From NCBI RefSeq assembly GCF_000177675.1, contig NZ_ADGX01000001.1, positions 1 to 64,000 of the forward strand: DNA of 64,000 bases, in the 5' to 3' direction. The translations under genes and the position numbers were made by a program. This document shows positions 4,575 through 59,983 of this stretch, one piece after another (the first letter of the stretch is position 1; every line of letters starts with the position of its first letter). The notes below the pieces were generated by a model. It was not told the origin of the DNA and ran no database searches. It saw nothing but the letters and a program-made list of their open reading frames with translations. This DNA is from Parafrankia sp. EUN1f (lineage in GTDB: Bacteria > Actinomycetota > Actinomycetes > Frankiales > Frankiaceae).

Positions 4575-4596
4575 TTGGCATGCAGTATGACATGCC
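4575..4596. promoter_or_regulatory. Operator-like TTGGCATGC palindrome, divergent promoter
   Basis: TTGGCATGCAGTATG followed by ACATGCC sits between the divergent F420/NADP-type reductase (leftward) and crotonase (rightward) genes. Essentially the same sequence recurs at 17166 and 55534, each time between divergent genes. The dyad form fits a GntR/FCD-family dimer; the regulator gene at 41628 is a candidate (inference). Confidence 0.65.
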
Positions 4597-5451: not shown

Positions 5452-6402
5452 CTACGGGCCTGCCCGCCACAGCAGCTCCGCCAGCTCGCGGGCCGCCGAG
5501 AGCGGGTCCTGCCGGCCGCCTGCGACAGCGGCGGCAAGGGAGTCGAGCCGGGTATGGAGTAGCTCGAGGGCCAGCGTCTCGATCTCGCGACGGCTGCGCG
5601 CCGCACGCCGCCCATCCAGCTCACCCGAGGAGACAAGCTGGGCCCAGTGGCGATCCACCGCGTCGACCACCGCGTCGACACCCGCTCCCGTCGTCGCGGT
5701 CGTCAACTCGACGGGAGGGGTCCATGACGCCGTGGCGTGCGCACCGCCGGACACCGCGAACCTGATCTGCGAGCGCGTGGTCTCGGCTCCGCCACGATCC
5801 GCCTTGTTGACCACGAAGATGTCGCCGCGCTCGATGATGCCCGCCTTATCTGCCTGAACCTGGTCGCCCATGCCCGGGACCAGGATGACCACCGTGGTGT
5901 CGGCGACAGCGGCGATGTCGACCTCAGACTGCCCGACCCCGACGGTCTCGAGGATGACGACGTCGAAGCCGGCCGCGTCGAGGACACGGACGGCGGTCGA
6001 TGCCTTGGACGACAGGCCGCCGAGGCTCCCACGGCTCGCCATCGACCGGATGAAGACACCCTGGTCCAGGTCGTGTTGGTGCATCCGCAGGCGGTCGCCG
6101 AGAAGCGCGCCGCCCGTGGTGGCGGAGCTCGGGTCGATCGCCAGCACGGCCACGGTCCGGCCCCGCTCTCGCAGCACCGCGGTCAGGGCGCCGACCGTCG
6201 TAGACTTGCCGGCTCCGGGCGGCCCGGTGACCCCGACGACATGGGCCCGGCCGACCAGCGGGAGGATCAGCTCGTTGATGTCCTGGACGATCGATGGCTC
6301 GTTCTCCACCAGGGTGATCAGCCGGCCCAGCGCACGGATGTCGGCGGCTCGCGCGCGGGTAAGCAGTGACGTCACATCGTTGCCGGCCATGGCCGTGAAC
6401 AC
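5452..6402 (-). CDS. meaB: MeaB/ArgK-type G3E GTPase (acyl-CoA mutase chaperone)
   Basis: A 316-residue P-loop GTPase with Walker A GPPGAGKST at residues 60-68, the conserved DPSS and GDRLRM segments, ETVGVGQSE switch region and NKAD base-recognition motif. MeaB proteins protect and reload B12-dependent methylmalonyl-CoA or related acyl-CoA mutases. No mutase is found in this window, so the partner must be encoded elsewhere. The gene converges on the crotonase gene (40 bases apart) and is divergent from the ThDP dehydrogenase operon across the site at 6518-6535. GTG 6402 is used; ATG 6390 is possible. A second MeaB paralogue lies at 42399-43427. Confidence 0.88.
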   Translation of the reverse strand: MFTAMAGNDVTSLLTRARAADIRALGRLITLVENEPSIVQDINELILPLVGRAHVVGVTGPPGAGKSTTVGALTAVLRERGRTVAVLAIDPSSATTGGALLGDRLRMHQHDLDQGVFIRSMASRGSLGGLSSKASTAVRVLDAAGFDVVILETVGVGQSEVDIAAVADTTVVILVPGMGDQVQADKAGIIERGDIFVVNKADRGGAETTRSQIRFAVSGGAHATASWTPPVELTTATTGAGVDAVVDAVDRHWAQLVSSGELDGRRAARSRREIETLALELLHTRLDSLAAAVAGGRQDPLSAARELAELLWRAGP

Positions 6403-12349: not shown

Positions 12350-12587
12350 CTGCCCTATCCGTGCGACGATCGACAGATCAACGCATGCCTGTGGGCGTAC
12401 AAGGAGCATCCAGGACGGGCGCGGATTCCCCGCCCCTGCCGCAGCCGCGTGCGGGTCCTTCCCCGTTAGCCACCCGAGCGGATGACGCCCACGGGTCGAG
12501 GGTGGGCAGCTCGAGGCAACAGGAGGGACCGCGGTCCGAGCGGGTCACGTGGAGCCGCACAACTGTGCAACGGTAAGGAGACCGAGG

Positions 12588-14966
12588 GTGAGCGATATCA
12601 GCACTGACGCCGTGGCACGGGCGCTGCCGTCCAGGTCGTTGCTTGAAGGAATCCGGGTGGTCGAGGTGTCCTCCCGAGCCTCGGGCGCGTACGCGGGACG
12701 CCTCTTCTCCGTGCTCGGAGCCTCTGTCGTCCGGTATGGGCCGGTGCTGGATCTTGCTGCGGTCGGCACCGTCGCGAGCCTCACGGAGCAGTGGCTGCAC
12801 GAGGGCAAGACCCTGGGCGCCGCGTCGAGGATGGAGCCCGAGCAGGTCGTGTCGGGGGCGGACCTGGTGCTGCTCGAAGTCGACTCGGCCGACGCCGAGT
12901 GGCGGAGCTGGGCGTCCGAGGTCGAGGCGGCGGCCGGACGTCGGCCCTCGAGCGACTCGGTGCGGCCACCCGTCGTGCTCCGCGTCGAAGGCGCCGTGGT
13001 CGATGGTCGGCCGATCCCGTCCGACGCGCTGTCGGTAGGGGCCTGGTCGGCGATGAGCTGGTCCATCGGCGGCGCGGACAGGGAACCGCTCACCCTGCCG
13101 TTCGATCTGCCGGACTTCCAGGCCGCCCTCTACGGGGCGGCTGCTGGGCTGGCTACGTTGCTCGCCGACCCCGCGGCGCCGGACCTCCGTTCCGTCGAGG
13201 TCGCCACCAGGGATGTGCTGGCCTACTACGTCGGCATGATCACTGCGAACTTCCTTCCGTACGAGCGGCCCTGGACCCGCGACGGCGCCCGGCCGCCGGG
13301 CTCCGCGGGGGTCTACCCGGCCAGCATCTTCCCCTGCGCGGACGGTCACGTTGTCCTGATGTGCCGCAACCAGCGGGAGTGGAAGGCGTTGCTGGCCGCT
13401 ATGGATGATCCGGAGTGGGCTCGCGATGCCCGGTTCGACGATCCGCGGGTCGTCGCCCGGCTGCACGCCGACGAGGCCGACAGCCATCTGATGCCCTGGG
13501 TGCGGGGGCAGACCACCGAGGAGCTGATGGTGATCGGCCAGAAGCACGGGCTGGCGGTCGCACCGATCCGCTCGATGAGTGAGGCGCTCGAGGAGCCACA
13601 GTTCGCGGAGCGCGGCTTCCTCGGTGAGCTGCCGAGGGCACCGCGGCCCGTCAGGGTCGCGACCGTCCCGTGGCACCTGTCCGAGATCGGCGACGCTCCG
13701 TCGGAGGCCCGTTCGTGGCCCGTCGGGTCCTCGGCGACCGAGCCGGCCCGGCTGCTCGAGGGGCTGCGGGTGCTGGACCTGAGCTGGGTCTGGTCCGGCC
13801 CGCTCACCACGTCGATCCTGAGCGACCTTGGCGCCGAAGTGATCAAGGTGGAGCACGAGGGCCATCTCGACACCGGGCGGCTGCGCGGCAAGGCCCGGCG
13901 CGGGGGCGTCGAGGTCGAGGGCCCCGAGCACGAGGCCACGCCCTACTTCAACCAGATGAACCACGGCAAGCGGAGCATTACGGTCGACCTCAAGCATCCG
14001 CGCGCGCGCACACTCCTGCTGGACCTGGCGGAGCAGTGCGACGTGGTGGTGGAGAACATGAGGCCGGGCGCGCTGCAGCGGCTGGGCCTGTCCTACACCG
14101 ACTTCGCGGGGCGGAACCCGTCCATCGTGATGCTGTCCATGTCCATGGCCGGCCAGGAGGGACCGCTGCGGACCATGAAGGGCTACGCTGGGATCATGGC
14201 CGCGATGTCCGGCCTGGAATCCCTGATCGGGTACGACGAGGCCAATATCGTCGGCAGCCTTTCGCCCGCCCTCGGCGACCCGAATGCCGCCGGACACGCC
14301 CTCACGGTCCTGCTCGGTGCCCTGATCCGGCGGCGGCGGACGGGCGGCGGGGCGTGGATCGACCTGTCGCAGATCGAGGCGCTGCTCTGTGCCCTGCCGG
14401 CGCCCGTTGTCCAGAGCCAGCTGGAACCCGCCATCCCTGTTCCCGCGAACTCGCACCCGCGGATCGCCCCGCACGGTCACTTCCCCTGCCGCGGGGAGGA
14501 CCGGTGGATCGCCCTCAGCGTGCGGGACGACGACTGGTCCGCCTTCACCTCGGTTGCCGCCGACGCGCCGTTCGCCTCGGAACCCCGCTGGTCGAGCCTG
14601 CGGGAGCGGATCAGCGGACGGTCACAGCTCGAGGCCGCCGTCGCGGAATGGTCCGCGGGGCAGGAGCGCGATGAGCTGGTAGACCGCCTGCTCTCCGCCG
14701 GCCTGCCGGCGGCGCCGGTGGCGAGCTTCGAGGAACTGACTGACGCCGCGTGGACGAAGGAGCGGGAGCTGACGGTACGAGTGTCACACAAGTACCTCGG
14801 GGACGTCGAAGTCTTCGTCGTGCCGTGGAGGTTCGGCGGCCACACGGCGGGGCGAGCCCAGCCGGCTCCGCTCCTCGGGGCGGACACCGACGACGTCCTG
14901 CAGCGCCTGCTCGCGCTGACGCCGCGCGAGATCGGGGAACTGCGCGCCGACGGCGTGCTGCGGTAG
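12588..14966 (+). CDS. Tandem class III (CaiB/BaiF-type) CoA-transferase
   Basis: A 792-residue protein with two CaiB/BaiF domains in tandem, about residues 15-385 and 395-790, twice the usual length. The second begins LLEGLRVLDLSWVWSGPLTT and keeps the catalytic Asp in LGDPNAAGHALTVLLGAL. The first has a weaker match, with Asp in LPDFQAALYGAAAG. Class III enzymes move CoA between carboxylic acids through an aspartyl-CoA intermediate. GTG 12588 is used because GGTAAGGAG precedes it by seven bases. The MaoC gene follows in the same direction after 47 bases. Similar tandem proteins occur in actinobacterial degradation clusters; the acid substrate is unknown. Confidence 0.85.
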   Translation: MSDISTDAVARALPSRSLLEGIRVVEVSSRASGAYAGRLFSVLGASVVRYGPVLDLAAVGTVASLTEQWLHEGKTLGAASRMEPEQVVSGADLVLLEVDSADAEWRSWASEVEAAAGRRPSSDSVRPPVVLRVEGAVVDGRPIPSDALSVGAWSAMSWSIGGADREPLTLPFDLPDFQAALYGAAAGLATLLADPAAPDLRSVEVATRDVLAYYVGMITANFLPYERPWTRDGARPPGSAGVYPASIFPCADGHVVLMCRNQREWKALLAAMDDPEWARDARFDDPRVVARLHADEADSHLMPWVRGQTTEELMVIGQKHGLAVAPIRSMSEALEEPQFAERGFLGELPRAPRPVRVATVPWHLSEIGDAPSEARSWPVGSSATEPARLLEGLRVLDLSWVWSGPLTTSILSDLGAEVIKVEHEGHLDTGRLRGKARRGGVEVEGPEHEATPYFNQMNHGKRSITVDLKHPRARTLLLDLAEQCDVVVENMRPGALQRLGLSYTDFAGRNPSIVMLSMSMAGQEGPLRTMKGYAGIMAAMSGLESLIGYDEANIVGSLSPALGDPNAAGHALTVLLGALIRRRRTGGGAWIDLSQIEALLCALPAPVVQSQLEPAIPVPANSHPRIAPHGHFPCRGEDRWIALSVRDDDWSAFTSVAADAPFASEPRWSSLRERISGRSQLEAAVAEWSAGQERDELVDRLLSAGLPAAPVASFEELTDAAWTKERELTVRVSHKYLGDVEVFVVPWRFGGHTAGRAQPAPLLGADTDDVLQRLLALTPREIGELRADGVLR

Positions 14967-15966: not shown

Positions 15967-17097
15967 TCAGCGGTGCGCATCGACCGGCCCCGCCAACGCC
16001 GCGAGCAGGACGTCTTCCAGCTCCTCGACCACGGGTTGGAAGGTCGTGCCGCGGGCCGCGGGGTCCATCAGCGCCGTGGCGGCCAACGCGGGAACGTCCT
16101 CGCGGGACACCCCGAGCTCGGCGAGGCCATTGACCGGCACGATGCCCTCGAGGAGCCGGGTGCAGGCCAGGGGAACCGCCACCGGCGCGCAGCCGAGTAC
16201 GGCGGCGAGTCGATCCAGACTGGCCGGGTCGCGCTGGGCGCAGAGCCGTAGGGCGTGCGGGAGGACCACAGCGTCGACGGGCCCATTGTGCCCCCCGGTC
16301 ACGTGTCCGACGGTGTGCGCGATCGCGGCGGTCAGGGCACCACCAGTGGCGTCCGTCGCATCGCCGACGGCGGCGGCGGCCAACACGAGCCGGGTCCGTA
16401 CACCGAGGTCGGCGGGCTCGGTCGCCGCGCGGCGGAGCAGATCGGGCAGCTCCAGGACGGCACGGCCCAGCGCCTGCTCGGCCTCGGCGTCGCGGCGTCG
16501 AGTGGTGAGGCCCTCGACCGCCATGACCAGCGTGGTCAGTCCGGCGTCGCGGACTAGGGCGGGCGGGGTCGAGGCGAGCAGGCGCGGGTCGACGATCAGG
16601 GCGGTGGCCCGGGTCGCCGGGTCCAGCATCGCCCGCCGGCGCATCAGGCCGCGCTCGGTCACCGCGGTGCCTGCCTTCACGGACGCGGTTGTCGGAGTGG
16701 TGGGCAGGACCACGATCGGCAGCCGCGGGGCCGTTCCCGGCCTGCGGAACTCGGGTCCGTCGGCGAGCACGATCGCGGTCGCCCGCGCGGTCACGATGGC
16801 GGAGCCGCCGCCGGCGACCACGATCGCGTCTGCACCCGCGGCGCGGAGCCGCTCCGCGGCCGCGAGGACGCTTTCGATCGGGCTGTGCTGCGCGAGCGAG
16901 GACTCGACGATCGCGTACGGACGCCCGGCGGCGCCGCCGAGGAGGGCTCGCAGGCCCGGATCGTGCGCGACCGACCGGGGGGCGAGGAGCGCGGGGCGGC
17001 GCGAGCCGAGCCGGCTGAGCTCGTCAGCGAGCCGGGCGGCGCTGCCCGGGCCGTGGTGCAACCGCACCGAGGACCGCAGCACAGGTCCATCGCTCAC
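15967..17097 (-). CDS. Iron-ADH/maleylacetate reductase-family dehydrogenase
   Basis: A 376-residue protein of the iron-containing alcohol dehydrogenase superfamily. It has GGGSAIVTARATA (nucleotide binding), the PTTPTTASV segment, and C-terminal AIAHTVGHVTGGHNG. By comparison with FucO, two of four metal ligands (Asp and His of DALTH) are replaced (TTLVM), while the two later histidines remain. A metal-free maleylacetate-reductase-like chemistry is possible. GTG 17097 is chosen because it overlaps the stop of a 10-codon upstream frame, and the same GTGA overlap joins the homologous fragment at 53131 to the preceding ACAD. The locus is a collapsed copy of the 53-60 kb locus. The start at ATG 17187 lies inside the operator and is rejected. 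Confidence 0.8.
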   Translation of the reverse strand: MSDGPVLRSSVRLHHGPGSAARLADELSRLGSRRPALLAPRSVAHDPGLRALLGGAAGRPYAIVESSLAQHSPIESVLAAAERLRAAGADAIVVAGGGSAIVTARATAIVLADGPEFRRPGTAPRLPIVVLPTTPTTASVKAGTAVTERGLMRRRAMLDPATRATALIVDPRLLASTPPALVRDAGLTTLVMAVEGLTTRRRDAEAEQALGRAVLELPDLLRRAATEPADLGVRTRLVLAAAAVGDATDATGGALTAAIAHTVGHVTGGHNGPVDAVVLPHALRLCAQRDPASLDRLAAVLGCAPVAVPLACTRLLEGIVPVNGLAELGVSREDVPALAATALMDPAARGTTFQPVVEELEDVLLAALAGPVDAHR

Positions 17098-17114
17098 CGA
17101 CGTGCCGGTCCCAG
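16913..17114 (+). repeat. 202-bp repeat, copy 1 (5' end of ADH gene)
   Basis: This segment matches 52947-53148 in the same orientation, with a single mismatch (17076 G against 53110 A). It covers the first roughly 60 codons of the ADH gene and the end of the preceding frame. Copy 2 is a truncated ADH gene. Confidence 0.9.
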
Positions 17115-17126
17115 GTGAAGGTCCAC
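17094..17126 (-). CDS. Ten-codon leader frame from an ACAD-ACAD deletion
   Basis: GTG 17126, behind GAGGAGGAG, encodes MDLHLGPARR, and its TGA overlaps the ADH GTG start (GTGA). The beginning MDL is the start of the ACAD encoded at 55488 (MDLRYSAAEQ). The end LGPARR is the C-terminus of the ACAD encoded at 53128 (GLGLGPARR). The mini-frame is therefore what remains after an in-frame deletion of both ACAD genes, and it keeps translational coupling into the ADH gene. Whether the peptide itself matters is doubtful. Confidence 0.6.
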   Translation of the reverse strand: MDLHLGPARR

Positions 17127-17165
17127 GTCGCTCCTCCTCGTCGGATGTGACCCCATAGGCGCAGC

Positions 17166-17187
17166 AGCTTGGCATACAGTATGGCAT
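17166..17187. promoter_or_regulatory. Operator-like TTGGCAT palindrome before ADH
   Basis: TTGGCATACAGTATG followed by GCATGCC. It matches the divergent operator at 55534-55554 almost base for base, and the DNA on both sides (the leader to the right, the GAGGAGGAG ribosome site to the left) is also homologous to that locus. Confidence 0.65.
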
Positions 17188-17245
17188 GCCTTCGCGGATA
17201 CGGCATTGCCGCCCGGCCGCCGCTCTGCGGGGCCGCTACCAGAGG

Positions 17246-17311
17246 GTGCCCTCCACCATCGACGACGCCTCGGCACTCGACACCCTGCGACCTAACCTGC
17301 ACCCTCGGTAA
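17246..17311 (+). pseudogene. 3' scrap of an acyl-CoA synthetase gene
   Basis: Sixty-six bases encode VPSTIDDASALDTLRPNLHPR-stop (given here to show the match). They align without gaps to the last 66 bases of the acyl-CoA synthetase gene ending at 59936 (VPSTLDDASVLDALRPILRPR). Upstream, 17188-17243 instead matches the 5' leader of the SDR gene at 55634. The breakpoint is at about 17244, so a deletion removed SDR, thiolase-like, DUF35 and synthetase genes. Confidence 0.8.
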
Positions 17312-17358
17312 TGGCCGCGTAAGCACGCGACGGCAGAGGGACATCAGCAACCGACGAC

Positions 17359-17388
17359 GCGGGCCCGATGTCGTGACATCGGGCCCGC
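17359..17388. terminator. Terminator hairpin after synthetase scrap
   Basis: GCGGGCCCGATGTC and its exact complement form a 14-pair stem with a 2-base loop. A hairpin of the same sequence type (GCGGGCCCCGATGCC) follows the full synthetase gene at 59984. Here it lies 43 bases before the NTF2-like gene and would insulate it from the ADH operator region. Confidence 0.7.
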
Positions 17389-17430
17389 AGGCGCCGGTCG
17401 AGCGCCAGCCGACGGACCGCTAGGAGGAGG

Positions 17431-17958
17431 GTGGCGCGTGCCGCCGGACGGACGAGACATGGAGACATTCTGAGCGCGTCCCAGCAGTTGCGACGGCTCG
17501 TGGACCAGGGCGAGATCCGCGACCTGGTCCACCGATACTGCCACGCCGCCGACCAGCAGGACCACGAACAGCTCAGCACCCTGTTCACCGCGGACGGGGC
17601 GCTGAGCTTCGAGCGGTCGCCACTGGCCACGCCACCGTCCTCCTCGCCCTTGCCGCCCTCGGCCTTCGTCACCTACCGGGGCCGCGCGGACCTGCGGTCG
17701 ATGCCGAGATCGCCGCTTCCCCGGGGCCTCCACGTCACGACGAACACTGTGATCACCTTCGATGGTCAGGACGACGCCACCGGGCTCAGCTATTTCGTCC
17801 GGTTACTGACGGACGACGACGGGTACCGCATCGGGAACGCCGGCCTCTACCGTGACCGGTACCGAAGGACTCCGGCGGGTTGGTTCATCTACCAGCGCAC
17901 GATCCACTCCCTGCCTCCCGGCGGGTTGCCGCTGGAGCTCTTCGCTCCGTCGAACTGA
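17431..17958 (+). CDS. SnoaL/NTF2-like domain protein
   Basis: A 175-residue protein of the SnoaL_4 type: LRRLVDQGEIRDLVHRYCHAADQQDHEQLSTLF is the typical first helix and strand, followed by FTADGALSFE and RDRYRRTPAGWFIYQRTIH. Such proteins act as cyclases, isomerases or small dehydratases, often as accessory proteins in ring-degradation clusters. GTG 17431 follows TAGGAGGAGG closely. It stands alone, downstream of the collapsed locus. Confidence 0.75.
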   Translation: MARAAGRTRHGDILSASQQLRRLVDQGEIRDLVHRYCHAADQQDHEQLSTLFTADGALSFERSPLATPPSSSPLPPSAFVTYRGRADLRSMPRSPLPRGLHVTTNTVITFDGQDDATGLSYFVRLLTDDDGYRIGNAGLYRDRYRRTPAGWFIYQRTIHSLPPGGLPLELFAPSN

Positions 17959-42323: not shown

Positions 42324-42398
42324 CGTCGGCGCGACGGATCACTGTGATGCCCGACATGGATGCGATACGGCACGATCCAGGCTCGTCCAGGTGACGCC

Positions 42399-43427
42399 GT
42401 GACGAGGGCGCAGGGGCCGCCGCTGGCGACGCCCGATCGTGCCATGCTCCCGGGGCGGCGCGGCGGCCCTGCGCTCGACGTCCCGTCGCTGGTCGCGCGG
42501 GCGCGCACATGGGACCCGAGGGCGGTCGGGCGGCTGATCTCGATGGTCGAGAATGCCGGCCCCGAGCTGCGCGAGGTGGCCGCGGCCCTCGCACCGCACA
42601 CCGGCAGGGCCCAGGTGATCGGACTGACGGGACCTCCCGGGGTGGGGAAGTCCACGACGACGACCGCCCTCGTGCGGTCGCTCCGCGCCCGCGACCGGCG
42701 CGTCGGGGTGCTCGCGGTCGACCCATCGTCGCCTTTCTCCGGCGGGGCCCTGCTCGGTGATCGGGTGCGGATGCAAGCTCACTCCGGCGACCGCGACGTC
42801 TACATCCGGTCCATGGCCACCCGCGGGCGGCTCGGCGGGCTGGCGCCAGCGACCCCGCAGGCGCTGCGCGTCCTCGATGCCGCCGGTTGCGATATCGTCC
42901 TCGTGGAGACCGTGGGCGGCGGGCAGTCCGAGCTGGAGATCGCCTCGCTCGCGGACACAACGCTCGTGCTCATGGCGCCCGGGATGGGCGACGGCATCCA
43001 GGCGGCCAAGGCGGGGATCCTCGAGGTGGCCGACATCTTCGTCGTCAACAAGGCCGACCGGGAGGGCGCGGACCAGACGGTCGGCGACCTGCGCGCCATG
43101 CTGTCCCTCGGCGGCCGGCACGCCGAGCCCGGTGCCTGGCGGCCGCCGATCATAAAGACCGTCGCCAGCCAGGAGGGCGACAGTGGCATCGACGAGGTCC
43201 TCGACCGGCTGGATGAGCACCGGGCGTGGCTGGCGTCCTCTGGCGAGGGGCACCGCCGGCGCACCGACCACGTCAGGCGCGAGATCGAGGCGATCGCCAT
43301 CGCCGGCCTTCGCGAGCGCCTGGGCAACGTGCACTGGTCAGCCACCCTGAGCTCGCTGGCTGCGTCGGTCGTCGCAGGGGAGACCAACCCCTACCGCGCG
43401 GCCGACGACCTGCTCGGGGCGCTCTGA
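42399..43427 (+). CDS. meaB: MeaB/ArgK-type G3E GTPase (second copy)
   Basis: A protein of about 342 residues with GPPGVGKST Walker A, DPSSPFSGGALLGDRVRMQ, ETVGGGQSE and NKADREGAD. It is related to the protein at 5452 but clearly diverged. The start is uncertain: GTG 42399 behind AGGTGACG is chosen, ATG 42360 and ATG 42444 are alternatives. It follows the GntR gene in the same direction and may be co-transcribed. As with the first copy, no acyl-CoA mutase is nearby. Confidence 0.85.
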   Translation: MTRAQGPPLATPDRAMLPGRRGGPALDVPSLVARARTWDPRAVGRLISMVENAGPELREVAAALAPHTGRAQVIGLTGPPGVGKSTTTTALVRSLRARDRRVGVLAVDPSSPFSGGALLGDRVRMQAHSGDRDVYIRSMATRGRLGGLAPATPQALRVLDAAGCDIVLVETVGGGQSELEIASLADTTLVLMAPGMGDGIQAAKAGILEVADIFVVNKADREGADQTVGDLRAMLSLGGRHAEPGAWRPPIIKTVASQEGDSGIDEVLDRLDEHRAWLASSGEGHRRRTDHVRREIEAIAIAGLRERLGNVHWSATLSSLAASVVAGETNPYRAADDLLGAL

Positions 43428-47785: not shown

Positions 47786-48555
47786 TCAGGCGAGCTCCTC
47801 AAACGCGGCCACGTCGCCATCGTCGAGCCGCAGGTTGGCCGCCGTGACCAATGGGTCGACCTGGTCCGGACGGCGAAAGCCCACAATCGCGCCGTCGACG
47901 GCCGGGTTGCGCAGTGTCCAGGCCACCGCCACCGTGCCCGGGCTGGTGCCGAGGCGCTCGGCTGTCGTGCGGAGCCGCTCGACGAGCGCGAGGGCACTCG
48001 ACAGCCGGGGCTCCTGGAAGCGCGGGTCGTCCTTGCGCCAGTCGTTGTCCGGCAGGTTCGCGACCCACTCGTGCGTCATGGCGCCGGACAGAAGACCCGA
48101 GGGCCATGGGAGCGTAGACGATGACGCCGATCCCCTCGCCCAGTGCGAAGGGAAGCACGTCGTCCTCGGCGGCGCGGTCGAGGAGCGAAAGCTGCGGCTG
48201 AACGGTCTCGACGGGCGCGATCTGCTGAATCCGTCGGAGCTGGTCCACGCTGAGGTTGGAGACGCCTATGTGCCGGACGAGGCCCTGCTCCTTGAACTCG
48301 GCGAAGGTCGACCATCCCTCCTCCAGGTCTTCGGCGGGCAGGGGCCAGTGGACCTGGTAGAGGTCGATCGCCGCCCGCCCCAATCGCCGCAAGCTCGCTT
48401 CCGCCTCGCGCAGGATCGATTCGCGCTTGACGCTGTGCTCGATGGTCCCTCCCGGGCCCTCGAGCAACGACGCCTTGGTGAACACGTAGGGACGTCGGCC
48501 GGGAGGGAGTTCGGCGAGCGCCCGGCCGACGACCCGCTCGGAACGGCCGAACCCG
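47786..48555 (-). pseudogene. Aldo/keto reductase gene, 5'-truncated and frameshifted
   Basis: From about 48555 the frame reads GHGFGRSERVVGRALAELPP, then LYQVHWPLPAEDLEEGW (with the catalytic His region), IGVSNLSVDQLRRIQ and VIVYAPMA. At about 48098 one extra C shifts the frame; SGLLSGAMTHEW continues in the next frame to the end at 47786 (AWTLRNPAVDGAIVGFR). The first about 60 residues, including the catalytic Asp and Tyr, are missing, replaced by the 63-base repeat next to the IS66 fragment. Confidence 0.8.
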
Positions 48556-48615
48556 TGTCCACCCGGTGGACGATCCCGCCGTCGAGGGCCGACGACCCGC
48601 CGTGGGGAGCGGGCG
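48553..48615 (+). repeat. 63-bp repeat with perfect palindrome, copy 1
   Basis: Identical to 50570-50632 except for one base (48584 G against 50601 A). It contains GTCCACCCGGTGGAC (48557-48571), a perfect 7-1-7 inverted repeat. It separates the truncated AKR gene from the IS66 fragment. Site-specific recombination end or short repeat element: undecided. Confidence 0.8.
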
Positions 48616-50569: not shown

Positions 50570-50632
50570 CCGTGTCCACCCGGTGGACGATCCCGCCGTC
50601 AAGGGCCGACGACCCGCCGTGGGGAGCGGGCG
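50570..50632 (+). repeat. 63-bp repeat with perfect palindrome, copy 2
   Basis: Direct repeat of 48553-48615 with one mismatch; the palindrome GTCCACCCGGTGGAC is at 50574-50588. The two copies bracket the IS66 fragment and the orphan lipoprotein (about 1.95 kb). Between 50372 and 50722 no gene is seen. Confidence 0.8.
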
Positions 50633-51780: not shown

Positions 51781-51910
51781 GGGTGTGCCTTCCCGACCGA
51801 CGCGCCAACGTCGGCCTGACTGAGACCTCAACCTCGATCACCGGGAAGGTACGCCCTCCCCAGCCGATCCACAGGTCTCAACCATTGCTCTGGTGGCCGC
51901 ATATGTCGGT

Positions 51911-52283
51911 CTGTGGGAGGCGATGGCCGAGGCGGCCATACCTCGGACTGGCAGTCGCCCGAGCTGGCGCGGTACGCATCGGGGGATGCGTTACAGGCAG
52001 TCTCCGGCAGCCTGTATGCCGATCATTACAACGGGCTGGTGTCGCGTGGCGCCCCCGTGCTGCATCCGGAGGTCACCTCCGTGGAGCCGGCCGACGCGCC
52101 GACGACGGTGATGGTGTTCGACTGCTCCGACAGCACGAACTGGCTGCGTCACCGTGCGGACGGGGCGCCGTTCACCGCGAGCCGGGTGGGCGGCGGGCGG
52201 TGACGTCCGAGGTACGGCTGCATCAGGACGGGTCGTGGAAGGTGACCCGGTTCGCTGTCGAGCCGGTGAGCTCATGCAGTTGA
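51911..52283 (+). pseudogene. Conjugative-element-associated hypothetical gene, two frameshifts
   Basis: Across three frames the sequence reads LWEAMAEA, then HTSDWQSPELARYASGDALQ and SLYADHYNGLVSRGAPVLHP, then EVRLHQDGSWKVTRFAVEPV and a normal stop. This is a small protein commonly found beside conjugation genes in actinobacterial integrative elements. Breaks near 51933 and 52182 (a missing G) disable it. It overlaps the next gene by a few bases, as operon partners do. Confidence 0.6.
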
Positions 52284-52946
52284 CACGCCTCGTCCTCACC
52301 GGCACATGCCTACTGGGATTACTTGCTGCGGGGGCTCCGGCGTTCGCTGACAGCTACGCGACCACGGACTGTGCGCAGAATCCGATCCCGGGCTGTGACC
52401 TGGCCGCGGGTGGTGACGGCCTCGCACCGGCATCTCCTGGCGGGCAGGCGCCGCCACCGCAGGGCGGCGGGAGCGGCGGCTCGGGTCGCGGTGGGTCGAC
52501 CCGCCCTCCGGGTGATGTGGCGCTCGACCCTGCGGATGTCGCGCGCTGTTCCTACGTCCGCAGCGACCTCCAGCCCACCACAGAGGCGATCCAGCCGGTG
52601 CTGTTCCGCCCGGCCCCCGACGACGGCGGTCTGCGGGTGGTGACGGCGGTCGACCGGCCCGGCCCGCTCCTCGCGCGGCCGGTCGCGACGGGGCCCGGAC
52701 GGTCGGCCGGGTGCCTGGTATGTCTACCAGTGCCAGACCGAAGGGGTGCGGGACGCGTTGTACCGGCCGCCGGTATGGATAGCCGACGGCCAGGGCGGGC
52801 CGGTGGCAGGCAGGCCGGGATGTGGGTGGGCTGGCGGAGCAGGCCCGCAGCCAGCTGCGGCTGCAAGGCCCGGCGATCGCGTTGAGCCCGATCGGCCGGC
52901 AGTTGATCCGCTTGCCGACCTGGATGTGGCTGGACCCCGCCGGCTG
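52274..52946 (+). pseudogene. Secreted conjugation-associated protein gene, frameshifted and cut off
   Basis: ATG 52274 encodes MQLTRLVLTGTCLLGLLAAG-APAFA, a clear signal peptide, then a Pro/Gly-rich linker and DLQPTTEAIQPVLFRPAPDD. Near 52710 the frame breaks; the match resumes as AWYVYQCQTEGVRDALYRPP and later LIRLPTWMWLDPAGW, a pattern typical of exported proteins in actinobacterial conjugative elements. At 52947 it is cut by the 202-bp ADH repeat. Confidence 0.6.
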
Positions 52947-53131
52947 GCGTACGGACGCCCGGCGGCGCCGCCGAGGAGGGCTCGCAGGCCCGGATCGTGC
53001 GCGACCGACCGGGGGGCGAGGAGCGCGGGGCGGCGCGAGCCGAGCCGGCTGAGCTCGTCAGCGAGCCGGGCGGCGCTGCCCGGGCCGTGGTGCAACCGCA
53101 CCGAGGACCACAGCACAGGTCCATCGCTCAC
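52947..53131 (-). pseudogene. 5' fragment of the iron-ADH gene
   Basis: GTG 53131 overlaps the ACAD stop (GTGA). The frame reads VRLHHGPGSAARLADELSRL and LLGGAAGRPYA, then stops matching at 52947 where the conjugation-type gene begins. It equals the first about 60 codons of the intact gene at 15967-17097. It shows that the ancestral operon order was ACAD, ACAD, ADH. Confidence 0.88.
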
Positions 53132-53148
53132 CGACGTGCCGGTCCCAG
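52947..53148 (+). repeat. 202-bp repeat, copy 2
   Basis: Same orientation and one mismatch relative to 16913-17114, 36,034 bases away. Its left end is an abrupt junction to the conjugation-type gene and its right end lies in the last codons of the ACAD gene. Confidence 0.9.
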
Positions 53149-54240
53149 CCCGAGGCCCGCAGCGAGCCGGTCGAGGTGTTCGTCGGCCGGCCCGAGTAGC
53201 CGCGCGGAGGACAGCGCCCGCTTGTAGTAGAGGTGGGCAGGGTGCTCCCACGCGTACCCGACCCCGCCCAGGACCTGGAGCGCGGCGGCGGCGGCGCGTT
53301 CGATCGCCGGGGAGACATGGGCGCAGGTGAGCGCGGCGAGCTCCACCGGGTCCTCGAGCCTGTCGACAGCAGCGGCGGGGGTCGAGACCGCCCAGGCCGC
53401 GTAGCGGGCGACCACCCGGGCCGAGTCCACGTCGGCATAGGCGTCGGCCAGCAGGTGCTTGACCGCCTGGAAGCCACCGATGGGCCGGCCGAACTGCTGC
53501 CGGGTGAGCGCGTGCTCGACGGCGAGGTCCAGGACGCCCTGGCCGACGCCGACCTGCTCGGCAGCGAGCAGGATGCGGGTGATCGCCTGGGCGCGGACGA
53601 GCGCGGCCTCGTCGAGATCGGTGGCCACCGAGGTGGCCGGCGTCCCGTCCAGGACCACCGTCCCGAGCGAGCGGGCCGGGTCCAGTGGCGTCTCGGACGT
53701 CACGGAGGCACTCCCCCGCTCGACCGTGAAGAGGCCGAGACCGTCCGCCGTTCTCGCGGCCACGAGGAGCAGGTCGACCGAGTCCCCGTGCAGCACGTGC
53801 GCCCGCTGGCCGGTCACGCGCCAGCCCCCGTCCCGGGCGCTGGCGGTGAGCCCGTCCGCGGGCCGCGCGGCGTCCACCCAGGTGGCTGTGCGTTCCCCGG
53901 CGGCGATCTCGGTCAGCGCGGGGTGGGCACCCGGCCCGCCGGCGCGCAGCACAGCCACCGCCGCGCCCGCGGTCGCGAGCAGCGGCTGGGAGGACACCGC
54001 CTGCCCGGCGGCCTCCAGCACGAGCGCAAGATCCAGCCATGTTCCGTCCGCGCCATCGTGCTCGGCCGGCACCGCGATGGCGGGAAAGCCCGCCTCGGTG
54101 GCCAGCCGGGCCCAGATCTTGGGCTCCTGACCGGGGCGCCCGGCCAGGATCGCCGCACGGTCGTCCGCGAGCACGTCGGTGAAGAACCGGCGGGCCAAGG
54201 CGGCGAGGTCGGCCTGGTCGGCGTCGAGTTCAAAACGCAT
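53128..54240 (-). CDS. Acyl-CoA dehydrogenase (second subunit of a pair)
   Basis: A 370-residue ACAD-fold protein: LDADQADLAALARRFFTDVL at the N-terminus, ALTRQQFGRPIGGFQAVKHL in the C-terminal domain, and LGGVGYAWEHPAHLYYKRAL. The usual EGT/GGT segment is missing; it ends SSARLLGPADEHLDRLAAGL, as in the partner subunits of heteromeric ACADs. It is encoded nine bases after another ACAD gene, so an alpha2beta2 enzyme like the FadE pairs for steroid side chains in Mycobacterium is plausible. Its stop overlaps the start of the ADH fragment. Confidence 0.85.
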   Translation of the reverse strand: MRFELDADQADLAALARRFFTDVLADDRAAILAGRPGQEPKIWARLATEAGFPAIAVPAEHDGADGTWLDLALVLEAAGQAVSSQPLLATAGAAVAVLRAGGPGAHPALTEIAAGERTATWVDAARPADGLTASARDGGWRVTGQRAHVLHGDSVDLLLVAARTADGLGLFTVERGSASVTSETPLDPARSLGTVVLDGTPATSVATDLDEAALVRAQAITRILLAAEQVGVGQGVLDLAVEHALTRQQFGRPIGGFQAVKHLLADAYADVDSARVVARYAAWAVSTPAAAVDRLEDPVELAALTCAHVSPAIERAAAAALQVLGGVGYAWEHPAHLYYKRALSSARLLGPADEHLDRLAAGLGLGPARR

Positions 54241-54249
54241 GTCCGTCTC

Positions 54250-55488
54250 CTACCGAGCAGCTGTGGTCGGGCGCTGTTCACGGGGCAGGCCGAGCAGCCG
54301 CTCACCGATGGTGTTGCGCTGGATCTGAAGTGAGCCGCCGTAGACGGTGATCGGCCGGGCATGCAGGGCGGCCTGGATCCAGGCCGTGCGCGAGGTGGGG
54401 TCGACCCCCTTCGGCTGCGGGCCGCGTGCGGCGACGGTGTCGGGGCCCACCAGAGCGACTGCGTCCGGACCGAGCACGTCCAGCGCGAGTTCGGTGACGC
54501 GCTGGCGGTAGCGGGAGACGAACCACTTGGTCACCGACGACTCGGCTCCGGGGACCGCCTTCGAGGAGACGGCGGCCAGCGTGCGCAGGGCCAGGCAGCG
54601 GATCGCGTGCGCGTCGGCCCGGCAGCGGGCGAGGCGCCGGGTCACCGACGTGTCGTCGGCCCGGCCGCTCTCGACGATCAGCTTCGCCAGCCGCTCCAGC
54701 TCGATCCGGGACGAGACGGCCAGGGCCAGGCCGCCCGCGCCGCGCTCGAACCCGAGGAGCGCCATGGCCACCGTCGCGCCTTGCCCGACACCGCCGACGA
54801 CGTGGTCGGCGCGGGCCACGGCATCGTCGAAGAACACCTCGGCGAGTTCGGTCTCTCCGGCCATGTTCCGGATGCCCCGGACGGTCACGCCGCGCTGGTC
54901 GATCGGGATGAGCAGGAAGCTCAGCCCCTTGGCTCCCTTGACCTCCGGGTCCGTCCGGACGACGGTGAAGATCCAGTTCGCGGTGGTGCCGGCGGTCTGC
55001 CAGACCTTCTGCCCGTTGACGATCCAGGTATCGCCGGAGCGGTGCGCCACGGTCCGCACGTTGAACAGGTCGGAGCCGGCCTCGGGCTCGGAGTAGCCCT
55101 GGGCCCAGCGGATCTCGCCGGAGAGGGTCCGGGGCAGGAAGTAGTCACGCTGTTCCGGGGAGCCGTAGTGCATCAACGTCGGGCCCAGCAGCTGGAGGCC
55201 GAAGGTGTCGTTCGGTGTCGGGTACTGGGGTGCGCCGGCCTCCGCCAGCTCCTCCGCGACGATCGACTGCTCGATGATGCTCAGCCCACCGCCGCCGTAC
55301 TCGGCGGGCCAGCCCGCTGCGAACATGCCGCTCTCCAGCAGTCGTTCCCGCCACCACGGGTCGAATCGGGCCCGTTCCTCCGTACCGAGCGCGCCATAGC
55401 CAGCCCAGTCCGCGGGCAACAGGGAGCGCAGCGTCGACCGGACCTCGTCGCGATAGGCCTGCTCGGCGGCGGAATAGCGAAGGTCCAC
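54250..55488 (-). CDS. Acyl-CoA dehydrogenase (first subunit of a pair)
   Basis: A 412-residue ACAD: GGGGLSIIEQSIVAEELAEA, the FAD/substrate segment WAQGYSEPEAGSDLFNVRT, WIVNGQKVWQT, and the C-terminal TVYGGSLQIQRNTIGERLLG. The start is GTG 55488 behind AGGAGGAGC. It is the first gene of the leftward arm, starting 46 bases from the shared operator at 55534. Remains of its first codons are found at 17126 in the collapsed locus. Confidence 0.88.
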   Translation of the reverse strand: MDLRYSAAEQAYRDEVRSTLRSLLPADWAGYGALGTEERARFDPWWRERLLESGMFAAGWPAEYGGGGLSIIEQSIVAEELAEAGAPQYPTPNDTFGLQLLGPTLMHYGSPEQRDYFLPRTLSGEIRWAQGYSEPEAGSDLFNVRTVAHRSGDTWIVNGQKVWQTAGTTANWIFTVVRTDPEVKGAKGLSFLLIPIDQRGVTVRGIRNMAGETELAEVFFDDAVARADHVVGGVGQGATVAMALLGFERGAGGLALAVSSRIELERLAKLIVESGRADDTSVTRRLARCRADAHAIRCLALRTLAAVSSKAVPGAESSVTKWFVSRYRQRVTELALDVLGPDAVALVGPDTVAARGPQPKGVDPTSRTAWIQAALHARPITVYGGSLQIQRNTIGERLLGLPREQRPTTAAR

Positions 55489-55533
55489 GTTGCTCCTCCT
55501 AGTAGGGCATGACCTCGTATGGTAAGCATCTAC

Positions 55534-55554
55534 TTGGCATGCAGTATGGCATGC
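55534..55554. promoter_or_regulatory. Operator-like TTGGCATGC palindrome, divergent promoter
   Basis: TTGGCATGCAGTATGGCATG followed by C, between the ACAD arm (leftward) and the SDR arm (rightward). It differs from the 4575 and 17166 sites at only one or two bases. Its central position allows one regulator to control all six genes of the locus. Confidence 0.68.
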
Positions 55555-55633
55555 TTATGGTGGATGCAGCAGGCGGAATTCGCAGTGGTGCGGGCCGCCG
55601 CTCTTCGGTCCGCTCCCAGAGAGGAACGACCAC

Positions 55634-56395
55634 ATGGTGAACCTGACGGACCGGGTCGCGATCGTCACCGGAGGAGGACAGGGGATCGGGGCCGCGACCG
55701 CGCAGCGGCTGGCCACCGCGGGAGCCGCGGTCGCGGTGATCGATCTGGTCGAGGCGAACGCCAAGTCGGTCGCCGCCCAGATCGCCGAGGCCGGCGGCGC
55801 CGCTGTGGCGGTGGCATGCGACGTGTCCCAGGAGGACCAGGTCGCGGCCGCCGTCGAGCGGACCGTGGCGGAGCTCGGCCCGGTTGGGGTCCTCGTGAAC
55901 AACGCCGGCGTGCTGCGGGACAACCTGGTCTTCAAGATGTCGCTCGACGACTGGACCACCGTGATCGACACCCATCTGCGGGGGACGTTCCTGTTCACCC
56001 GGGCGGCGCAGGCGTCGATGGTGAAGCAGCGGTGGGGCCGCATCGTGAACCTGTCGAGCGTGGCGGCGCTGGGCAACCGGGGGCAGACCAACTACTCGGC
56101 CGCGAAGGCCGGCCTGCAGGGCATGACCAAGACGCACGCGATCGAGCTGGGCCAGTTCAACATCACGGTCAACGCCGTAGCGCCCGGTTTCGTGGAGACG
56201 CCGATGATCAGGCAGACGGCTGCCCGGCAGGGCCTCGACTTCGAGGCGTACAAGGAGGCGGTGGCGGAGCGGAACCCGATGCGCCGCGTCGCCCAGCCGA
56301 TCGACATCGCGAACGCGATCGCCCTGCTGGCCAGCGAGGACGCCGGTTTCATCAACGGGCAGGTCATCTACGTCGCCGGCGGGCCACGGGCATGA
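55634..56395 (+). CDS. Short-chain dehydrogenase/reductase (FabG-like)
   Basis: A 253-residue SDR: TGGGQGIG at about residues 11-18, VAVIDLVEAN with Asp for NAD, NNAGVLRDN, and NLSSVAALGNRGQTNYSAAK with Ser, Tyr and Lys. The product resembles 3-hydroxyacyl-CoA or 17-hydroxysteroid dehydrogenases. It is the first gene of the rightward arm; its stop overlaps the next start (ATGA). Its leader is partly retained at 17188-17243. Confidence 0.87.
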   Translation: MVNLTDRVAIVTGGGQGIGAATAQRLATAGAAVAVIDLVEANAKSVAAQIAEAGGAAVAVACDVSQEDQVAAAVERTVAELGPVGVLVNNAGVLRDNLVFKMSLDDWTTVIDTHLRGTFLFTRAAQASMVKQRWGRIVNLSSVAALGNRGQTNYSAAKAGLQGMTKTHAIELGQFNITVNAVAPGFVETPMIRQTAARQGLDFEAYKEAVAERNPMRRVAQPIDIANAIALLASEDAGFINGQVIYVAGGPRA

Positions 56396-57543
56396 GCATC
56401 CGGGGGGCGGCGTTCATTGCGGGCGCCTACGAGCATCCCGGCCGCGTGCTGCCGGACACATCGACTGCGCAGATCCACGTCGAGGCCGCGGTCGGTGCCC
56501 TCGCGGACGCGGGCCTGGACCTGACAGATGTTGACGGCTACCTCTGCTCCGGAGACGCGCCGGGCGGGCCCATCGCGATGGCCGACCACCTCGGTCTCGC
56601 GGCGCGGCACCTCGACTCGACCGACCTCGGTGGCTCCACCTACGTGGCTGAGGTGAGCCATGCCGCGCAGGCGATCGCGGCGGGCAAGTGCTCGGTCGTA
56701 TTGATCACGATGGGCGGGCGGCCGCGGTCCGCGGGCCGGCGGGTACCGCCCTCGGCCGGGCCAGCGCAGCCGTTCGAGATGCCGTACGGGCACAGCAACC
56801 CGGCGTCGTATGCCCTGGCGGCCAGGCGGCACATGCACGAGTTCGGCACCACGCCCGCGCAGCTGGCCGAGGTGAAGGTCGCTGCCGCCGCGCACGCCCA
56901 GCACAACCCGAACGCGTTCCTCCAGAAGCCGGTCACGGTAGAGGAGGTCCTGGGCTCACCGCTGATCGCGGCTCCGCTGCACCGGCTGGACTGCTGTGTC
57001 GTCACCGACGGCGGTGGAGCGCTGGTCGTGGTGTCACCGCAGGTGGCACAGTCCCTGGAACGCCGGACGGTGAAGGTGCTGGGGGCCGGAGAGGCCGCCA
57101 AGCACACCGATCTGGGCAGGATCGACCTGACCTACACGGGAGCGGTGTGGTCGGGACCACGCGCGTTCACCGAGGCCGGCGTGTCACACGCCGACATCGA
57201 CTACGTCTCGATCTACGACTCGTTCACCATCACCGTGATCATCACGCTGGAGGATCTCGGCTTCTGCGCCAAGGGCGAGGGCGGGCGGTTCGTCTCGGAT
57301 GGCACGTTGCAGGCGACAGGCCGCCTCCCGTTCAACACCGATGGCGGGTCACTGTGCAACAACCATCCGGCCAACCGCGGGGGAATGACCCGCACGATCG
57401 AGGCCGTGCGTCAGCTGCGCGGGGAGGCAGCCGCGGCAGTGCAGGTTCCGAACTGCGACCTCGCACTGGTACACGGGACCGGCGGGTGGCTCGGCACCCG
57501 AATGGGCAGCGCGACGTTGATCCTGGGGCAGGAGGACGCATGA
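56392..57543 (+). CDS. Thiolase-like lipid-transfer-type protein (probable aldolase subunit)
   Basis: A 383-residue thiolase-fold protein. The N-terminal half has LGGSTYVAEVSHAAQAIAAG where thiolases carry the nucleophile Cys, so the Cys is absent. The C-terminal half has VSIYDSFTITVIITLEDLGF, NTDGGSLCNNHPANRGGMTR and HGTGGWLGTRMGS, again without the second Cys. This pattern is that of Ltp2-type proteins, which with a DUF35 partner perform retro-aldol cleavage in steroid side-chain breakdown. The next gene encodes a DUF35 protein and overlaps it by four bases. A retro-aldolase role is therefore favoured over thiolysis (inference). Confidence 0.83.
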   Translation: MSIRGAAFIAGAYEHPGRVLPDTSTAQIHVEAAVGALADAGLDLTDVDGYLCSGDAPGGPIAMADHLGLAARHLDSTDLGGSTYVAEVSHAAQAIAAGKCSVVLITMGGRPRSAGRRVPPSAGPAQPFEMPYGHSNPASYALAARRHMHEFGTTPAQLAEVKVAAAAHAQHNPNAFLQKPVTVEEVLGSPLIAAPLHRLDCCVVTDGGGALVVVSPQVAQSLERRTVKVLGAGEAAKHTDLGRIDLTYTGAVWSGPRAFTEAGVSHADIDYVSIYDSFTITVIITLEDLGFCAKGEGGRFVSDGTLQATGRLPFNTDGGSLCNNHPANRGGMTRTIEAVRQLRGEAAAAVQVPNCDLALVHGTGGWLGTRMGSATLILGQEDA

Positions 57544-57965
57544 CCAGCGCCGAACGGCGATTCCCCGACGTGGACCCGCCCGTCGAGCCCGGCCTCGAGC
57601 CGTATTGGGAGGCAGCCACCGAGGGACGGCTGGTCCTGAGCCGCTGCGCCGAGGACGGTGCCGCGCTGTGGCCGCCCCGGCCCTTCTGCCCCCGGCACGC
57701 GTCCGCCGGCGTCCGCTGGGAGCCCGCCGGCGGCGGCGCGGAGGTCTACAGCTACACGGTCGTGCACCGGGGCGAGGGGGCCTTCGCGGCAGTCGCCCCG
57801 TACGTCCTCGCCTACGTTCAGCTCGACGAGGGGCCCCGGATGCTGACCAACCTGGTGACGTCCGACGGCAGGCCAGCGACCGAGGCCAGCATCGGGCAGC
57901 GTGTCGTGGCCCGGTTCGAGCAGCAAGGGAAGCTCCCCGTCCTTCGGTTCACCCAGAGCCACTGA
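57540..57965 (+). CDS. DUF35 OB-fold protein, partner of the thiolase-like protein
   Basis: A 141-residue protein with an N-terminal helix (LEPYWEAATEGRLVLSRC), a zinc-ribbon-like part and an OB fold (VYSYTVVHRGEGAFAAVAPY, VARFEQQGKLPVLRF). The rubredoxin-like cysteines are reduced to RCAED and FCPRHAS, so only two Cys remain and metal binding is doubtful. DUF35 proteins bind the acyl-CoA and dock on thiolase-like aldolases. Four-base overlap with the thiolase-like gene supports a complex. Confidence 0.83.
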   Translation: MTSAERRFPDVDPPVEPGLEPYWEAATEGRLVLSRCAEDGAALWPPRPFCPRHASAGVRWEPAGGGAEVYSYTVVHRGEGAFAAVAPYVLAYVQLDEGPRMLTNLVTSDGRPATEASIGQRVVARFEQQGKLPVLRFTQSH

Positions 57966-58034
57966 CGGCGGGCACCGTGCTTTCCCAAAACAGAGCTTTC
58001 CTGAAACAGCGCCGTGCATGGCAAGGAGGCCCGC

Positions 58035-59936
58035 GTGGGTAGGTACGAGGACGTTTTCCGGGCCAGCGTGGAGGACCGGGAGAGGTTCTGGCTGAACGCC
58101 GCGGGGGCGCTCGACTGGCACCGGGCACCCACCAGGGCCCTCGACGACTCGAACCCGCCTTTCTACCGCTGGTTCGCCGACGGGGAGATCAACGTCGCGC
58201 ACAACGCGCTGGACCGACACGTCGAGGCCGGCCGCGGCGACCAGGCCGCGCTGATCTACGACTCTCCGGTCACCGACACCCGACGCACCTACACCTACAC
58301 GCAGCTGCGCGACGAGGTCGCGACCTTCGCCGGGGTGCTGCGCGGCCTGGGCGTCGGGCTCGGGGACCGCGTGGTGATCTACATGCCGATGATCCCCGAG
58401 GCCGCGATCGCGATGCTCGCCTGCGCGCGGCTCGGCGCGGTGCACTCGGTGGTGTTCGGCGGGTTCGCCGCCAAGGAACTCGCGGCCCGCATCGACGACG
58501 CAGCCCCCAAGGTCGTCGTCTCCGCCTCGTGCGGGATCGAGGGCAGGCGGATCATCGAGTACAAGCCGCTGCTGGACAAGGCGATCGAGCTGTCGGCGAA
58601 CAAGCCGCAGACGCAGGTCATCCTGCAGCGCCCGCAGGCCGTGGCAGCGATGGGCCCGAACGACGCCGACTGGGCCGAGGCCGCCGCCTCGGCGACCCCC
58701 GCCGACCCGGTAACCGTGAAGTCGACCGACCCCCTCTACGTGCTCTACACCTCCGGCACCACGGGCCGGCCCAAGGGCGTGGTCCGCGACAGCGGCGGCT
58801 ACGCCACCGCGCTGGCCTGGTCGATGCCCAACGTCTACGACGTCGGCCCCGGCCAGACAATCTTCACCGCCTCCGACGTCGGCTGGGTCGTCGGGCACTC
58901 CTACATCGTCTACGCCCCGCTGCTGGCCGGGGCGACCACCGTCCTCTACGAGGGCAAGCCGGTCGGCACCCCCGACGCCGGTCAGTTCTGGCGGGTCATG
59001 TCCGAGTACGGCGTGCGCAGCATGTTCACCGCGCCGACGGCCTTTCGGGCACTGCGCAAGGAGGACCCGAACGGCGACTACGCGCGCAGGTACGACCTGT
59101 CCGGGCTGCGCTACCTGTTCCTGGCCGGGGAGCGGCTCGACCCTGAGACCTACCGCTGGGCCTCGGAACTGCTGAAGATCCCGGTCATCGACCACTGGTG
59201 GCAGACCGAGACCGGCTGGCCGATCGTGGCCAACCCGGCCGGCATCGAGCTGCTGGAGATCAAGCCCGGCTCACCGACCCGGCCCCTGCCCGGCTGGGAC
59301 ATCCGGGTCCTCGACACCGACGGCAGGCCCGCGCCGGCCGGGGAGGACGGCGCGATCGTCGCGAAGCTGCCGCTCCCGCCGGGCGCGTTCCCCACTCTGT
59401 GGAACGACGACGAGCGGTTCGTGAAATCCTACCTGTCGGCTTTCGACGGCTACTATCTCACCGGCGACGGCGGCCGCATCGACGCCGACGGCTACGTGTT
59501 CGTGATGGGCCGCACCGACGATGTCATCAACGTCGCGGGGCACCGCCTGTCCACCGGCGGCATGGAGGAGGTCCTCGCCTCGCACCCCGACGTCGCCGAA
59601 TGTGCAGTCATCGGCGTCTCGGACCAGATGAAAGGCCAGCTCCCGCGCGGGTTCGTAGTCCTCAAAGCCGGTGTCCTGGACCGAGAAGGGGCCGCCACCG
59701 AAGGCTACGAGGACAGGCTACGCGCCGCGCTGGTCCAGATGGTGCGCGACCAGGTCGGCGCGGTGGCCTCACTCAAGGAGATCTCGATCGTGCCCGCACT
59801 ACCTAAGACCCGCTCCGGGAAGATCCTGCGCAAGACCATGCGCGGTATCGCCGACGGCATCGACGAGCCGGTGCCGTCCACCCTCGACGACGCCTCAGTC
59901 CTCGACGCCCTGCGGCCCATCCTGCGCCCTCGGTGA
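58035..59936 (+). CDS. Acyl-CoA synthetase (acetyl/propionyl-CoA synthetase type)
   Basis: A 633-residue AMP-forming synthetase close to PrpE/Acs: N-terminal RFWLNAAGALDWHRAPTRAL, the P-loop YTSGTTGRPKG, DHWWQTETGWP (AMP-binding and acyl-pocket Trp), GRTDDVINVAGHRLSTG, and C-terminal PKTRSGKILRKT with the catalytic Lys. GTG 58035 follows AAGGAGG by five bases. A short or medium acid such as propionate is expected, possibly recycling a product of the aldol cleavage. It closes the rightward arm; a strong terminator follows. The last 22 codons recur as a scrap at 17246. Confidence 0.87.
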   Translation: MGRYEDVFRASVEDRERFWLNAAGALDWHRAPTRALDDSNPPFYRWFADGEINVAHNALDRHVEAGRGDQAALIYDSPVTDTRRTYTYTQLRDEVATFAGVLRGLGVGLGDRVVIYMPMIPEAAIAMLACARLGAVHSVVFGGFAAKELAARIDDAAPKVVVSASCGIEGRRIIEYKPLLDKAIELSANKPQTQVILQRPQAVAAMGPNDADWAEAAASATPADPVTVKSTDPLYVLYTSGTTGRPKGVVRDSGGYATALAWSMPNVYDVGPGQTIFTASDVGWVVGHSYIVYAPLLAGATTVLYEGKPVGTPDAGQFWRVMSEYGVRSMFTAPTAFRALRKEDPNGDYARRYDLSGLRYLFLAGERLDPETYRWASELLKIPVIDHWWQTETGWPIVANPAGIELLEIKPGSPTRPLPGWDIRVLDTDGRPAPAGEDGAIVAKLPLPPGAFPTLWNDDERFVKSYLSAFDGYYLTGDGGRIDADGYVFVMGRTDDVINVAGHRLSTGGMEEVLASHPDVAECAVIGVSDQMKGQLPRGFVVLKAGVLDREGAATEGYEDRLRAALVQMVRDQVGAVASLKEISIVPALPKTRSGKILRKTMRGIADGIDEPVPSTLDDASVLDALRPILRPR

Positions 59937-59983
59937 CGGCCGCAGCTGCACAGGCACTACGGCCAACCCGCCGGCCGCTTACG

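Follow-up and report, generated by a model that had tools for sequence, protein, structure and literature searches.

The window analysed here, a stretch of 64,000 nucleotides, is the start of a 136,044 bp contig in a 9.35-Mb draft genome of 396 contigs (Parafrankia sp. EUN1f). On its minus strand, an intact gene of the Fe-ADH family (hereafter ADH) is preceded by a short leader frame, beside which lie relics of a promoter and of an acyl-CoA synthetase gene; counterparts of these pieces are found in a cluster at 53.1-59.9 kb. The features are listed below in window coordinates.

15967-17097, minus strand: Fe-ADH-family gene, intact, 376 aa, GTG start, with Pfam domain matches
16913-17114: left copy of a 202-bp direct repeat, comprising the last 21 nt of ACAD2 overlapping by 4 nt the first 185 nt of ADH
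17094-17126, minus strand: leader frame MDLHLGPARR and stop, 10 codons, 33 nt, GTGGACCTTCACCTGGGACCGGCACGTCGGTGA
17117-17244, minus strand: promoter island relic, homologous to the ACAD1/SDR divergent promoter at 55479-55621
17127-17146, minus strand: predicted Shine-Dalgarno stretch before the leader GTG, GAGGAGGAG, duplex energy -11.6 kcal/mol
17171-17190, minus strand: operator-like site, GGCATGCCATACTGTATGCC
17245-17318, plus strand: gene-end relic of an acyl-CoA synthetase (propionate-CoA-ligase-like), last 22 codons, VPSTIDDASALDTLRPNLHPR and stop
52947-53148: right copy of the 202-bp direct repeat, with ADH truncated at 52947 against unrelated, frame-broken sequence
53128-54240, minus strand: ACAD2, intact, overlapping the ADH fragment by GTGA
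54250-55488, minus strand: ACAD1, intact, with the start GTGGACCTTC common to the leader
55634-59936, plus strand: divergent arm of the complete cluster, made up of SDR (55634-56395), a thiolase-like gene (ending at 57543) and acyl-CoA synthetase (58014-59936)

The ADH product matches both Fe-ADH models, PF00465 and PF25137, above the curated cut-off (79.6 and 47.2 bits), and its reading frame stays open upstream as far as an ATG at 17187. When the protein is aligned with lactaldehyde reductase, GVDALTHA corresponds to GLTTLVMA; two metal ligands look lost at this stretch, and the enzyme may work without a metal, as maleylacetate reductases do. Matches to ADH with E up to 1e-25 were found in only 3 genomes of the class (393 scanned) and 2 of the order (35 scanned), own genome included in both counts, and across both sets the best ones outside the own genome were 37-41% identical. 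None of the three extended ADH-match loci (L139-L141) carried ACADs, the plasmid search yielded 2 matching records of 72,556 (both <40% identical), and a first scan of genome contigs with the ADH query gave no match.

The leader begins with GTG and ends in a TGA (17096-17094) that overlaps the ADH GTG (17097-17095), forming GTGA with a -4 nt overlap. The first-pass annotation had described MDLHLGPARR as the start of one ACAD run into the end of another, and its overlap with ADH as the same one that joins ACAD2 to the ADH fragment at 53128-53131; both descriptions can be read directly in the sequence. From 17126 to 17094, the leader consists of four codons on the promoter side (GTG GAC CTT CAC), which resemble an ACAD1 start and of which codons 1-3 match ACAD1 itself, followed by six codons (CTG GGA CCG GCA CGT CGG) and the stop TGA, 21 nt in all, identical to the tail of ACAD2. 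Within the leader, an ACAD start meets an ACAD end. The overlap at 53131-53128 between ACAD2 and the truncated ADH is GTGA as well; this identity, however, does not amount to an independent second case, since both overlaps lie inside one 202-bp repeat.

The two copies of this repeat have the same orientation and are identical at 201 of 202 positions, with a single mismatch at 17076. The repeat extends exactly from the joint between leader and promoter (17114/17115) to the truncation point of the right-hand ADH; the left copy continues into the complete ADH and the right copy into complete ACAD2 and ACAD1. At the edge of the right copy, genes with broken frames (51883-52946) end abruptly where the ADH fragment begins; they gave no Pfam match and presumably resemble hypothetical genes of actinobacterial conjugative elements. 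A shorter direct repeat of 63 bp (48553-48615 and 50570-50632, 2 kb apart) is 98% identical.

On the other side of the joint, the promoter island aligned with 55479-55621 at a local score of 92, compared with a maximum of 36 in 300 shuffles, and 104 of 125 ungapped columns were identical (83%), with 21 further gap columns. The island spans the Shine-Dalgarno stretch and the first ten bases of ACAD1 and ends in four ACAD1-like codons. The assignment of the leader start to ACAD1 holds in that it is ACAD1-like, but an alignment of this quality does not describe a recent copy of the ACAD1 in the window. Next to the island, 17245-17318 is identical to the acyl-CoA synthetase end at 59870-59943 at 62 of 74 nucleotides (84%), the border between the two relics falling at about 17231-17245 with an uncertainty of ~14 bases. 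This tail also matches synthetase-gene ends in three genomes of the same genus (G002, G003 and G005). The relic promoter could be aligned over most of its length in none of 34 other family genomes; short matches occurred in five of the 34, those in G002, G003 and G005 being the synthetase-gene ends.

Within the relic promoter, the GGCATGCCATACTGTATGCC motif is one of three genome-wide, all inside the window (4577-4596, 17171-17190 and 55536-55555), and with up to two mismatches it was present in 7 of 393 class genomes, own genome included, as single sites elsewhere. The three sites probably constitute one small local regulon. They precede catabolic genes, namely an enoyl-CoA hydratase gene, the ADH leader and ACAD1/SDR. 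Among the window frames scanned with Pfam there was no TetR-type regulator, and a scan of 17000-17500 limited to the sigma-70 consensus found no sigma-70 hexamers. Across the relic promoter from the leader, a SnoaL-like gene (17431-17958) with a strong Shine-Dalgarno stretch may have become the plus-strand gene that this promoter now serves.

The two sides of the joint differ markedly in identity. The repeat (201/202) is far more alike than either the synthetase-tail relic (62/74; Fisher's exact P 7e-7) or the promoter relic (104/125 ungapped columns; Fisher's exact P 8e-9), and therefore the 202 bp were copied or moved recently, and relics and repeat did not separate at the same time. By this comparison, the leader joins pieces of different age: the ACAD2 tail with the ADH head would have recently passed from one locus to the other, or a single operon would have been split. 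The first-pass annotation had attributed the leader to an in-frame deletion that replaced two genes. The ACAD joint and the relics of a second cluster copy agree with such a loss, but a single in-frame deletion is insufficient alone, as its remnant would have ends of the same age, whereas here the tail side stands at 201/202 and the promoter side at 104/125. Because the sides differ in age, the history includes one exchange or more, and the recent event, be it an exchange or an insertion, may itself have created the joint. In-place deletion is possible, and so is capture of the promoter through a large insertion. A simple scenario in which the whole operon was recently duplicated and then suffered a deletion was rejected as a full account, given relics at about 83-84% beside a repeat at 201/202.

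The cluster at 53-60 kb has the layout expected of the lost copy, yet is itself truncated. Elsewhere in the genome, no high-identity copies of the lost genes were found: the best long match to the cluster was 71% (the synthetase), and the best other match of ACAD2 was 44%. An undeleted second copy was likewise absent from the relatives examined, of which the nearest named for ACAD1 is Pseudofrankia (59%). None of 80 loci with ACAD1 relatives had an ADH match in flanks of up to 6 kb, many contigs being shorter, and at the five closest (L028-L032) ACAD1 adjoins ACAD2 with no such ADH behind. Two further gene arrangements were observed in the window: MeaB-like GTPase genes at 5452-6402 and 42360-43427 are oppositely oriented with 72% DNA identity over 486 alignment columns, and an 805-residue frame at 12549-14966 contains two CoA-transferase family III stretches in tandem.

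Duplex energies with the anti-Shine-Dalgarno sequence were compared with a background of 3000 random sites. The stretch before the leader has a predicted energy as low as that of only 0.6% of random sites, whereas 39% of random sites are as low as the ADH GTG (-4.8 kcal/mol), which is therefore without a Shine-Dalgarno sequence of its own; the same value means that no second such sequence was found before this GTG, inside the leader. The in-frame ATGs upstream of ADH, at 17187 and 17175, also lack one (-3.8 each). In the predicted mRNA fold, the ribosome site and start region of the leader are largely paired (mean unpaired 0.18). The leader and ADH have the features of a coupled pair, an NTGA overlap of -4 nt and an efficient initiation site of its own upstream, the latter as a predicted Shine-Dalgarno sequence, so the earlier claim that the coupled start was kept stands as far as layout is concerned. 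On the 136-kb contig, 8 of the 1816 ATGA/GTGA sites are the end point of a frame of up to 20 codons led by a Shine-Dalgarno sequence, the leader being among the eight. If ADH is translated, the leader would be the sole strong ribosome entry point seen. Because the leader has a strong predicted site and the ADH start has none, termination and reinitiation from the leader is the likeliest route to ADH translation.

We moderately favor the reading that the leader is a scar frame left where a second copy of the cluster, diverged from the first, has been reduced to a relic, and that ribosomes probably re-initiate at the ADH GTG. The second copy is inferred because its promoter and synthetase tail remain beside the leader. 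A diverged version of the divergent cluster at 53.1-59.9 kb would once have occupied this locus and would have lost the coding sequence on both sides of its promoter except for gene ends: on the ADH arm the stretch that begins at ACAD1 codon 5 and stops close to the ACAD2 end, and on the other arm the stretch between the start of SDR and synthetase codon -22. The promoter, Shine-Dalgarno stretch and four ACAD1-like codons would thereby have come to stand in phase with the six final codons and the stop of an ACAD2 gene. Provided that the relic promoter is transcribed, ribosomes would load at the leader, translate its ten codons, terminate at the TGA and re-initiate at the GTG that overlaps it, and ADH would now be the first real gene of this promoter.

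The extent of the repeat also accommodates an insertion, which we regard as a tentative alternative. A 35.8-kb segment (17115-52946) would have split a single ACAD1-ACAD2-ADH operon and duplicated 202 bp of its target, through staggered breaks or a single crossover; its left end would have brought the relic promoter with the four ACAD1-like codons, and the insertion would itself have made the leader. The repeat runs exactly from joint to joint, ADH is whole on the left and ACAD2 on the right, a scripted junction of the two outer flanks reconstitutes the two genes, GTGA overlap included, and the repeat is much younger than the adjoining relics. The segment contains genes for catabolism and transport, a single IS5-type transposase and, at its right end, hypothetical genes; however, its scanned frames revealed neither an integrase nor a replication gene nor anything att-like, its ends showed no recognisable mobile-element machinery, a target duplication of 202 bp is unusual, and the unsplit operon was seen at none of the 80 ACAD1-relative loci, where ADH had no match. 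Alternatively, the draft may be mis-joined or mix populations, the assembler having swapped partners at the repeat, such that the true genome has ADH with ACAD2 and the relic promoter with the ADH fragment; undoing the swap gives an ordinary operon. The 202-bp repeat, the 396 contigs and a contamination estimate of 4.86% leave room for this, but we consider it very improbable, as the copies are told apart by the mismatch at 17076, paired reads normally span 202 bp, and the swap implies a 36-kb circle existing separately, for which no replication gene was recognised. With a comparably slim chance in our estimate, the direct repeats constitute a switchable operon; if so, recombination between them would loop out 36 kb to give one coupled ACAD1-ACAD2-ADH operon, the leader would keep ADH expressed from a second promoter while the segment is in place, and the same regulator would drive ADH in both states via the shared operator.

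The remaining alternatives concern the leader's function and the direction of copying. The leader could be untranslated debris, with ADH started at the in-frame ATG 17187 or 17175 or left untranslated; the frame is open up to 17187, and a ten-codon frame may couple poorly, as one report on deletion scars suggests (PMC8547470). We nevertheless judge this unlikely, because neither ATG has a Shine-Dalgarno sequence, ATG 17187 sits inside the operator-like site, and the leader site ranks with the strongest 0.6%. It is also doubtful that the GPARR tail and ADH head were copied from the leader locus to the ACAD2 locus, which would make the leader the older structure. This direction draws on ACAD2 homologues, in which the position of residue 365, where the repeat begins, is directly followed by a stop in 23 of 56 rows (16 of 52 readable ends by script tally, plus 7 rows with a stop inside the aligned piece; median end 368; six loci of the window's own ACAD2 excluded beforehand). 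However, tails vary widely, L054, L133, L134 and L059 also extend past residue 365, and rows L028 and L110, which end identically, may be from the same species.

The first-pass annotation had seen in the coupled start a fit with selection for continued ADH expression; the intact ADH and the kept operator lend mild support to the idea that relic promoter and ADH still matter, but coupling is hardly evidence of selection, because the overlap was inherited in the repeat, leaving nothing but the joint's phase to vary. In a script that generated all three phases, one phase yields the leader, with ADH expressed by coupling; another fuses the ACAD1 start directly to ADH, which is again expressed; the third produces a 33-codon frame that misses the ADH start. 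Two of the three would suffice for ADH expression, and selection is accordingly weakly supported.

Short coupled frames have precedents. In mycobacteria, 23 of 220 leaderless short ORFs are RTGA-coupled (Shell et al. 2015, PMC4633059); the leader shares with them a short upstream frame, the RTGA overlap and an actinobacterial host, whereas those counted are on leaderless mRNAs and the leader has a Shine-Dalgarno sequence and is built from two enzyme-gene ends. A review describes short ORFs delivering ribosomes, and mycobacterial MIRU insertions coupled at -4 nt (PMC12548453); there, too, a rearrangement left a short ORF coupled at -4 nt to a gene, but the leader is not a mobile repeat, and the operator motif of its promoter has three genome sites, all in the window. 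Bicistronic designs (BCD) use leaders of <20 residues carrying a second Shine-Dalgarno sequence (PMC5995908). The leader resembles them as a short first cistron of <20 codons, led by a Shine-Dalgarno sequence, that would deliver ribosomes to the second, but it is not engineered and, unlike a BCD, has no second site inside. Closest in construction are Keio scars, in which a start codon is followed in the same phase by the final 21 nt of the deleted gene, exactly the length retained in the leader; their 34-residue peptides were insufficient for most downstream genes tested, and 41 or 60 residues helped (PMC8547470). The leader is natural, would span two genes, has no FRT sequence and has 10 codons rather than 34. 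By analogy, the poor coupling of short scars would speak against efficient coupling here.

RTGA-coupled mini-ORFs are already known, and the special point of the leader is its origin as scars of gene ends; it is probably a natural but modest example, to judge from its layout, of a known mode of translation start. In the literature on coupling, leaders and deletions we found no natural two-gene deletion that left a coupled leader, which does not prove its absence from print. The leader is a datable natural counterpart of the laboratory deletion scar, and may serve only for ribosome loading. Claims of this kind can be tested by comparing the ages of the two sides of a joint and counting the phases that keep expression. 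If the coupling is true, gene-loss scars offer a concrete route by which short coupled ORFs, which are common in actinobacteria, could originate.
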